A stretch of DNA of 64,000 nucleotides from Halomarinibacterium sedimenti (GTDB lineage: Bacteria > Bacteroidota > Bacteroidia > Flavobacteriales > Flavobacteriaceae), in NCBI RefSeq assembly GCF_019312585.1, contig NZ_JAHWDP010000004.1, positions 62,001 to 126,000 of the forward strand, written 5' to 3'. The notes beneath the pieces were generated by a model. That model did no database searches. It saw nothing but the letters and a program-made list of their open reading frames with translations, and was not told where the DNA came from. Within the stretch, counting starts at the first letter, position 1; the number at the start of each line of letters is the position of its first letter. Shown here in pieces: positions 38,126-39,638 of the stretch. The position numbers were made by a program, and so were the translations under genes.

Positions 38126-39067
38126 TTACATCAAAAATTTGGAGCTAATGGATTTATTTTCATTTACCCGAAGCATCACATCGGCAAATAAATTGGCACA
38201 AGTTAATACTCTTATTTTATCACTTTTTTGACGTAGCGGAATGGAGTCTGTTACAATGAGCTCTTCAAGCTTCGATTTTTCTAATTTTTCATAAGCATTT
38301 CCAGAAAGAATAGGATGCGTACAAATAGCTCGTACACTTAAAGCACCTCGTTCCATCATTAAGTCGGCAGCTTTTGTTAAGGTTCCCGCTGTATCCACCA
38401 TATCATCAACGAGGACTACATTTTTACCCGTGACATCACCAATTAATTCCATGTGAGAGATAATGTTTGCTTTTTCTCGTTGCTTATAACATATTACCAC
38501 ATCGCTTTCCAATGCTTTTGAATAGGCATACGCTCTTTTTGAACCTCCCATGTCTGGCGAAGCAATAGTTAAGTTTTCTAGGTTAAGACTTTTTAAATAG
38601 GGTAAAAAGATAGTTGAGGCAAAAAGGTGGTCCACTGGTTTTTCAAAAAACCCTTGAATTTGGTCTGCGTGTAAATCCATGGTAATGATTCGAGTGGCAC
38701 CAGCGGTTTCCAACATTTTTGCGACTAATTTAGCAGCAATGGGCACACGAGGTTTGTCTTTACGGTCTTGACGCGCCCATCCAAAATAGGGAAGTACAGC
38801 AGTAATATGACGAGCAGAAGCTCTTTTGGCAGCATCCAACATTAACAACATTTCCATTAAGTGGTCACTGTTTGGAAATGTAGATCCAATAATAAATACA
38901 CGACTTCCACGAACCGATTCTTCAAAAGAAGGCTGAAACTCACCATCGCTATAGGTTGAAGTGATAACATTGCCTAAGTCACTGCCAAAGGCTTTAGCGA
39001 TATCTTTAGCAAGGTCCTGACTTTGTTTACAAGCAAAAATTTTAGGTTCTGGAATAGGTGCAGACAT
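38126..39067 (-). CDS. prs: ribose-phosphate pyrophosphokinase
   Basis: The enzyme makes PRPP from ribose 5-phosphate and ATP for purine, pyrimidine, His, Trp and NAD synthesis. Its marks are IFIIGSTFPNSDHLMEMLLMLDAAKRASA, the flexible loop VLPYFGWARQDRKDKPR, MDLHADQIQGFF and the PRPP loop VVLVDDMVDTAGTL. The length of 313 aa is normal. It has a separate promoter (39090-39097) and faces the tRNA-Leu/GIY-YIG locus divergently. Confidence 0.96.
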   Translation of the reverse strand: MSAPIPEPKIFACKQSQDLAKDIAKAFGSDLGNVITSTYSDGEFQPSFEESVRGSRVFIIGSTFPNSDHLMEMLLMLDAAKRASARHITAVLPYFGWARQDRKDKPRVPIAAKLVAKMLETAGATRIITMDLHADQIQGFFEKPVDHLFASTIFLPYLKSLNLENLTIASPDMGGSKRAYAYSKALESDVVICYKQREKANIISHMELIGDVTGKNVVLVDDMVDTAGTLTKAADLMMERGALSVRAICTHPILSGNAYEKLEKSKLEELIVTDSIPLRQKSDKIRVLTCANLFADVMLRVNENKSISSKFLM

Positions 39068-39162: not shown

Positions 39163-39170
39163 TATTTTTG
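39163..39170 (+). promoter_or_regulatory. -7 box (TATTTTTG), apparently the ancestral tRNA-Leu promoter
   Basis: This is an exact TAnnTTTG. It ends 12 nt before a 15-nt relic of the tRNA-Leu 5' end rather than before the intact tRNA, which is 350 nt further on. It now precedes the GIY-YIG gene, so gene and tRNA may share a transcript. Confidence 0.55.
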
Positions 39171-39180
39171 CCCTCCCGTG

Positions 39181-39221
39181 AAGCCTTGGTCCTGCCTGCC
39201 GGCAGGCAGGGGCGGTACAGA
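39181..39221 (+). repeat. tRNA-Leu relic split by a 20-bp perfect palindrome
   Basis: AAGCCTTGGT (39181-39190) and GGCGG (39211-39215) together equal the first 15 nt of the intact tRNA locus at 39520-39534. They are separated by the perfect palindrome CCTGCCTGCC/GGCAGGCAGG (39191-39210). The following GGTACAGA (39214-39221) repeats the 3' junction of the intact tRNA (39598-39605). The block therefore looks like a tRNA copy with its middle lost and a palindrome inserted. Confidence 0.7.
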
Positions 39222-39271
39222 TACGTTCTTTTTTATTAATTTTGATGTTCAGTTAAGCAAAATTTTTGACG

Positions 39272-39517
39272 ATGTATTGGGTATATGCGTTATCGAGTTT
39301 AAATCGAAACTATATTTATGTTGGAATGACTCAAGACATTGAACAAAGGATTTCTAGACATAATAATGGATTAGAAAGAACAACAAAACCCTATGCACCT
39401 TTTGTGCTCTTATATAAAGAAGTTCATCCCAATCGAATTGAAGCTCGAAAGCGGGAAAAATTTTGGAAATCTGGAGTTGGTAAAGAACAGCTTCGAGAAA
39501 TTAAAAATACACTGTAA
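39272..39517 (+). CDS. small GIY-YIG nuclease domain protein
   Basis: The 81-residue protein is a bare GIY-YIG (UvrC/URI-type) nuclease module. It has YWVYALSSLNRNYIYVGMTQDIEQRISRHNNG, where YVY/YVG take the places of GIY and YIG, then the catalytic Arg (QRISRHN) and the ARKREKFWKSGVGKEQLRE helix with the Glu/Lys pattern of the family. ATG 39272 is used; an upstream TTG at 39266 is less likely. It ends 4 nt before the tRNA-Leu gene. Such solitary genes are frequent beside tRNAs in Bacteroidota as I recall them. The role is unknown and mobility is possible. Confidence 0.85.
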   Translation: MYWVYALSSLNRNYIYVGMTQDIEQRISRHNNGLERTTKPYAPFVLLYKEVHPNRIEARKREKFWKSGVGKEQLREIKNTL

Positions 39518-39521
39518 TTAA

Positions 39522-39601
39522 GCCTTGGTGGCGGAATTGGTAGACGCGCACGACTCAAACTCGTGTTCTTCGGAGTGTGGGTTCGATTCCCACCCAAGGT
39601 A
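39522..39601 (+). tRNA. tRNA-Leu (anticodon CAA)
   Basis: The acceptor stem GCCTTGG pairs with CCAAGGT (G1:U72), followed by discriminator A. The D-arm contains TGGCGGAATTGGTAGACGCG. The anticodon arm CACGA-CTCAAAC-TCGTG gives CAA, reading UUG. A short class II variable arm (TTCTTCGGA) and T-arm GTGGG-TTCGATT-CCCAC complete it. CCA is not encoded. No -7 box stands directly before it. Confidence 0.95.
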
Positions 39602-39605
39602 CAGA

Positions 39606-39638
39606 AAAGCTCTTTAGAAATGAAGAGCTTTATTTTTT
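39606..39638 (+). terminator. terminator after tRNA-Leu
   Basis: A 9-bp stem (AAAGCTCTT / AAGAGCTTT) with an 8-nt loop is followed by ATTTTTTC on the plus strand. It overlaps the stop codon of the convergent T9SS gene. Confidence 0.82.

Follow-up and report, generated by a model that had tools for sequence, protein, structure and literature searches.

What is a gene for an 81-residue nuclease doing between the first nucleotides of a tRNA gene and the same tRNA gene in full? The question is raised by the tRNA-Leu(CAA) locus of Halomarinibacterium sedimenti, which lies in a stretch of 64,000 nucleotides analysed here in its entirety and called the window. The original prediction held that a small mobile unit had entered the 5' part of the tRNA gene, left one intact tRNA and placed its nuclease gene behind the tRNA promoter, and its description of the local layout holds in almost every respect. 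Read 5' to 3' on the forward strand, the locus comprises the -7 box of the native tRNA promoter (TATTTTTG, 39163..39170), a palindrome-split 5' tRNA relic (39183..39215), a leader, the gene for the single-domain GIY-YIG nuclease (39272..39517, with its ATG at 39272 and its stop codon at 39515-39517) and, after a gap of 4 nt, the intact tRNA-Leu(CAA) (39522..39602), which is recognized both by ARAGORN and by Rfam (RF00005). The relic in turn consists of tRNA nt 1-8 (39183-39190), the perfect 20-bp palindrome CCTGCCTGCCGGCAGGCAGG at tRNA position 8|9 (39191..39210) and tRNA nt 9-13 (GGCGG, 39211-39215), its tRNA parts being identical to 39522-39534. As such, the 5' end of the tRNA locus occurs twice, as AAGCCTTGGT at 39181-39190 and again at 39520-39529, with a spacing of 339 nt, and it is the upstream copy that is cut by the palindrome. 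The -7 box stands before the relic and not before the intact tRNA, and the GIY-YIG gene is the only gene between the two. A terminator-like hairpin with a T-run (AAAGCTCTT ... AAGAGCTTT ATTTTTT, 39604..39638, forward strand), read from the sequence, follows the intact tRNA, and on the other side lies the divergent neighbour prs, the gene for ribose-phosphate pyrophosphokinase (38126..39067, reverse strand). A genome search found no second copy of tRNA-Leu(CAA), making this a single-copy gene. No group I intron core was detected in the window, and between 38900 and 40400 only the tRNA exceeds the Rfam gathering score.

Taken by its sequence, the relic of the window is too short to stand out, scoring 16 against 16 for shuffled controls, and two further copies of AAGCCTTGGT exist in the window, one within a coding sequence and the other apparently at the end of one. 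For these two reasons, the case rests on synteny and on homologues. The palindrome occurs once in the window, against 0 expected. The relic most plausibly comprises tRNA nt 1-13 and nothing more; the further claim that the tRNA 3' junction GGTACAGA also bounds it did not hold up, since this 8-mer occurs three times in the window against 0.9 expected and has no counterpart in homologues. Its GG is the end of the relic's own GGCGG, and its appearance as a second relic end is probably a coincidence. At the corresponding spot, a 3' tRNA piece is absent from all of about 25 homologous leucine elements.

Synteny with prs, by which the native place of the tRNA can be located in relatives, reveals the history of the site. 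The prs gene is present in 145 of 150 Flavobacteriaceae genera, and tRNA-Leu(CAA) adjoins it in 29 of the 30 prs loci scanned (L014-L043), among which only L024, besides the window genome, carries a GIY-YIG gene at this site. In the relatives, the identical -7 box directly precedes the intact tRNA, whereas the intact tRNA of the window lies 339 nt downstream of the position kept there. The sole other genome of the same genus that was examined (G150) has an empty site (...TTTATTTTTGCCCTCCCGTTAAGCCTTGGTGGCGG...) with an uninterrupted tRNA. The direct passage from promoter to intact tRNA in the relatives and the empty site in G150 thereby indicate that the relic marks the native tRNA position and that the insertion is derived, which supports the predicted entry into the 5' part of the tRNA gene, with one intact tRNA left and the nuclease gene now behind the tRNA promoter. 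A relic in relatives without the GIY-YIG gene, which the original prediction had named as evidence against itself, was looked for and not seen, the promoter there running straight into the intact tRNA. Filled and empty members of the tRNA-Leu locus also occur side by side in seven further genera, which brings the same-genus pairs to eight in all; such presence and absence at a fixed site in close relatives is a mark of homing endonucleases. The nearest homologue of the window protein (73%) is found in G102, whose prs is only 82% identical, and all but one of the 13 genera closest by prs lack a GIY-YIG gene at the tRNA-Leu site, a distribution that, from sequence comparison, suggests horizontal movement of the element. 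With the native promoter parted by the insertion from the only tRNA-Leu(CAA) gene, the tRNA and the nuclease gene are probably co-transcribed from the promoter ahead of the relic, provided that no promoter lies within the GIY-YIG gene. Co-transcription of this kind would make loss of the element costly.

The available data are best explained by a model in which the locus is a small homing-type selfish element borne by a tRNA gene, to which we assign a probability of roughly two in three (0.68). Specifically, the nuclease would cut a tRNA gene that lacks the element, within the anticodon arm or close to it, and repair from an element-bearing allele would copy the GIY-YIG gene, together with the missing part of the tRNA, into the break. 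The copied tRNA part would keep the host alive, and one native half would remain as a relic. Beyond the empty sites and the patchy G102/prs distribution, this homing-type reading draws on tRNA adjacency, relics, nuclease clades that follow the tRNA, conserved catalytic residues, a low dN/dS, mismatched alleles at three loci and the tandem amplification driven by the phage enzyme SegB, which is to be set beside the frequency of tandem loci in the bacterial family.

How widespread is this arrangement? A first survey of PF01541 in 150 genera and in extracted regions found GIY-YIG genes that abut tRNA genes of the same strand, frequently as tandem copies. Those proteins were aligned (A2), and the alignment was then run, by protein sequence alone, on 395 Bacteroidota genomes, of which 139 matched, with up to 13 matches per genome. 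Among 102 distinct loci, 76 lie at most 100 nt and 83 at most 300 nt from a same-strand tRNA gene, and a contig end truncates some of the other 19; an opposite-strand tRNA within 300 nt was found at none of the 102. Adjacency of this kind has a rough chance expectation, estimated rather than simulated, of below 1%, and the predicted recurrence of solitary GIY-YIG genes beside tRNAs in Bacteroidota is thus borne out. The adjacent tRNAs are those for Leu, Ser, Arg, Cys, Asn, Met, Pro, Ala, Asp, Val, His and Phe in Bacteroidota and for Gly and Glu in two Patescibacteria contigs, about 14 amino acids overall, and a Neomarinimicrobiota bin holds a GIY-YIG copy with a 3' leucine relic (L162). A scan of genome contigs with one protein as query returned 6 loci, where an alignment query would reach further. 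The window genome itself has a second small GIY-YIG gene (L001:1260-1820, G000:C9), which has no tRNA nearby and is flanked by repeats around GTGGCTTCGATAC...GGGTCACT.

The relics of these loci were sought by aligning the tRNA with the sequence beyond the GIY-YIG gene, shuffled and reversed sequences serving as controls, at 104 loci with a tRNA within 180 nt, which were picked by score rather than at random and several of which come from single genomes. A relic of the adjacent tRNA lies on the other side of the GIY-YIG gene in 89 of the 104, so that nuclease ORF, intact gene and partial native copy stand side by side, the arrangement that characterizes gene-restoring mobile ORFs. Two mirror layouts exist, one with a 5' relic, the GIY-YIG gene and the intact tRNA in this order, as in the window, and one that runs from the intact tRNA through the GIY-YIG gene to a 3' relic and that the original prediction had not foreseen. 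Where the tRNA lies downstream, the relic exceeds the control in 43 of 46 loci, and 41 of these 43 begin at tRNA nt 1; where it lies upstream, the relic does so in 46 of 58, and 37 of the 46 reach the tRNA 3' end. No relic above control was found in the other 12 of the 58 or in the window itself, which weighs against the homing-type reading. Given that the relics are 5' parts in the first layout and mostly 3' parts in the second, what is left as the relic is the portion of the tRNA gene next to native sequence, either the promoter or the downstream flank. Specifically, 5' relics end at a median of nt 35 (IQR 29-40) and 3' relics start at a median of nt 34 (IQR 25-47), so that, with alignments of short relics being approximate at their ends, the median breakpoints of both layouts meet at the anticodon loop. 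What these loci show is a catalytically conserved GIY-YIG gene inserted in a tRNA gene along with a second, incomplete copy of the tRNA, one intact tRNA being kept.

Homing is not needed for such an arrangement if the GIY-YIG gene is a passenger of local tandem duplication, in which unequal recombination duplicates a segment of tRNA and GIY-YIG gene and the spare half decays and gains hairpins. Tandem copies are found at 36 of the 104 tRNA-adjacent loci, with array periods near 300-450 nt. Moreover, the native terminator is duplicated in several loci with the tRNA upstream, following both the intact tRNA and the relic, and the acceptor stems of relic and intact tRNA are of the same type in most leucine loci; both features would also be given by local duplication, which may hold for some of the loci, and to this extent weigh against the homing-type reading. 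What tandem duplication leaves unaccounted for is how the gene first came to an empty site in eight genera, the clades that follow tRNA identity across families, the hairpin conserved at one position in nearly all 30 leucine units, and relics of a different allele type, and we consider it an unlikely explanation. As to these relics of differing type, the variable arm of the relic at L024 differs from that of the intact copy, both being able to pair, and the acceptor stem type differs between relic and intact tRNA at L297 and L306. For the homing-type reading, a foreign origin of the restored tRNA part is only suggested by the mismatch at these three loci, the two copies being of the same type in most others. 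Partial tRNAs without GIY-YIG genes also form a tandem array (L125:1515-1830, G073), upstream of tRNA-Arg(tct) and beside tandem GIY-YIG units.

The protein of the window belongs to PF01541 (E=6.6e-18; 65 bits against a cut-off of 22.6), and its confident structure model (pLDDT 96) matches the folds of UPF0213 BH0048 (1zg2), Slx1 and the I-TevI catalytic domain in the PDB. Single-domain nucleases of the UPF0213 and Slx1 type are thus the nearest solved folds, and they are not known to be linked to tRNA genes. Y5, Y16, R26, H30 and E62, which, going by the residue roles in I-TevI, we take to be the catalytic Tyr, Tyr, Arg, His and Glu, are conserved in 100-101 of 101 homologues, and the median dN/dS among leucine-type genes is about 0.26. 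All 81 residues fall within the GIY-YIG domain and Pfam shows nothing else, so that there is no distinct DNA-binding domain such as typical homing endonucleases possess, a point against the homing-type reading. A tree of 101 proteins, built on 66 columns and with few forks resolved, clusters by tRNA identity across families, requiring 45 changes against 80 when shuffled, and none of 200 shuffles was as low. Its leucine clade (21 of 22 rows) and its methionine clade, each spanning several families, have a support of 95. That the nuclease lineages follow their target rather than the host tree is suggested by this strong clustering, seen in a tree of few resolved forks.

The palindrome had been cast as the partner of the nuclease in a single mobile unit, in the manner of RAYT/REP systems. 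Inserts of at least 12 nt, a count that takes in insertions of any origin, are present in 72 of the 89 relics and are mostly hairpins, with a longest stem of 6.6 on average against 4.8 in shuffles. Common insert sites are the junction 8|9, the end of the D-loop (21|22) and the T arm (51-56). In the homologous leucine elements, palindromes stand at 8|9, at 21|22 or at both; specifically, CCTGTCTGCCGACAGGCAGG or a close variant occupies 21|22 in nearly all of 30 units, and a second palindrome is often found at 8|9, as in the window. By tally only, the pairs in the leucine hairpins vary mostly on one side (T-G or C-G, positions 5/16). Other families have different hairpins, for instance twin small hairpins, or the whole arm replaced.

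Would a GIY-YIG protein that moves palindromes, with tRNA loci as one landing site, account for these observations? The exact palindrome is indeed a real dispersed repeat of Flavobacteriaceae, present in 27 of 150 genera with up to 18 copies per genome and 0 for the reversed control, and it is enriched in tRNA relics, which hold 6 of 28 sampled copies (five found automatically and the window copy by hand, its relic being below the automatic limit) against 9 of 560 random places. Copies were noted in G094, G074, G106, G120 and other genera. In the window genome, a second exact copy exists (G000:C8:515612); the palindrome is not the exclusive partner of the element, with just these two copies in the genome and most of the copies sampled across the family located elsewhere. 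The candidate of an element-specific palindrome holds in part only, most sampled copies lying away from GIY-YIG genes and tRNAs, and the homologous GIY-YIG genes of other lineages are accompanied by unrelated hairpins, which speaks against nuclease plus palindrome as the mobile unit. The likeness to RAYT/REP systems, an enzyme gene near dispersed palindromes, is weak, as the gene encodes a GIY-YIG enzyme rather than an HUH/Y1 transposase of RAYT type and most sampled palindrome copies are unlinked to it, and a pair of this kind appears very improbable.

Alternatively, the relic may be a working RNA, either a pseudo-tRNA with altered arms that regulates or neutralises the nuclease as a decoy or antitoxin-like molecule or a leader that controls its translation, in a unit that serves the host, for instance in defence or tRNA quality control. 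In three species of one genus, relic and hairpin differ at few places even though the dS of the GIY-YIG genes is 0.38-0.60, the hairpins tend to lie within tRNA arms or to take their place, and 5' hairpins regulate phage homing endonucleases including segB (PMC2988022). A leader or decoy of this sort is difficult to reconcile with the mirror form, in which the relic lies downstream of the gene, and with hairpins whose sequence and place differ between families, and the patchy presence within genera speaks against a core host function, which leaves a host-serving RNA improbable. Under the homing-type reading, the hairpins may guard the relic against recutting, tRNA processing or recombination with the intact copy. 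It is possible, although rather doubtful, that the hairpin-interrupted tRNA half is a working, conserved part (an immunity device, a homology arm or a decoy RNA) of undescribed tRNA-gene elements that span the phylum, and that the hairpins are placed in tRNA arms by the element's own machinery. A different structure, a long nested hairpin of about 110 nt around AAGCGAGCTT...AAGCTCGCTT, lies just 3' of tRNA-Leu(CAA) at L070, L017, L020, L040, L286, L296 and L303; its outer stem (AAACCNNAAAAA ... TTTTTNNGGTTT) varies among genera with pairing kept, and no Rfam family was matched in the three loci searched.

Essential as they are, tRNA genes are usually invaded by means of recombinases at their 3' end or by self-splicing introns. 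The elements described here differ in that a bare nuclease domain appears to enter mid-gene, with one working tRNA copy left by duplication, in Bacteroidota, two Patescibacteria contigs and a Neomarinimicrobiota bin. SegB-type proteins are larger than that of the window. In T-even phages, the GIY-YIG homing endonuclease SegB, whose gene neighbours tRNA genes, causes tRNA and segB to be amplified in tandem (PMC13096335), and it resembles the bacterial elements, as do other free-standing T-even GIY-YIG enzymes, in gene position, in reported cutting within tRNA-containing sequence (PMC2988022, PMC13096335), in the tandem amplification of tRNA and nuclease, and in a catalytic core that is the same by fold and motif. 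Unlike them, SegB-type genes reside in phages and not in a chromosome, and the accessible parts of these reports describe neither a tRNA relic nor a hairpin-split half. The mobile ORFs of fungal mitochondria (Allomyces atp6; Glomus atp6/atp9/cox2/nad3) restore the gene that they enter and leave its native end as a relic (PMC3630166); here too an endonuclease ORF enters a gene, brings or duplicates a part of it, and turns the native part into a relic. They differ in that mitochondrial protein genes are the targets and in that the foreign origin of the restored part, only suggested for the bacterial elements, is demonstrated there, and hairpins within the relic do not feature in the accessible part of that paper. 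Group I introns in tRNA anticodon loops (PMC3984707) share the tRNA region and the use of homing endonucleases, and the contig L328 has both kinds of insertion at one tRNA; the window, in contrast, is free of an intron core, and its tRNA is restored by duplication and not by splicing. Traits of SegB and of fungal mobile ORFs are combined in the bacterial elements, which further have hairpin-interrupted relics and no separate DNA-binding domain.

A search of the open-access literature, with most subscription journals outside its scope, returned no description of such elements in bacteria, SegB and the fungal mobile ORFs being nearest, and a family of selfish elements with essential tRNA genes as their targets, one working copy being spared, is apparently undescribed. 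If the homing-type reading is true, it would account for a common class of small GIY-YIG genes, provide a bacterial counterpart to fungal mitochondrial mobile ORFs and phage SegB, offer a source of compact nucleases whose lineages track tRNA identity, and raise a testable question of self-immunity. It also calls for caution with tRNA leaders and trailers, where hairpins and fragments of tRNAs can belong to an element.

Transport by phages or plasmids was considered as well and set aside: no relative of the window protein was found in either collection (in the phage collection, none at E<=1e-5); three virus-labelled contigs matched the alignment query. On the viral-labelled contig IMGVR_UViG_3300035537_000177 (L328:490-1480), one tRNA gene, probably tRNA-His, has a GIY-YIG element with a palindrome-split 5' relic, an anticodon loop occupied by a group I intron that contains an HNH-type gene, and a serine-recombinase-like ORF abutting its 3' end. 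A second viral-labelled contig, IMGVR_UViG_3300028786_000154 (L327:1-386), begins exactly at a GIY-YIG gene (61% identical), which is followed by a hairpin-rich tRNA relic and then by phage-like genes, including a lysozyme-like ORF.
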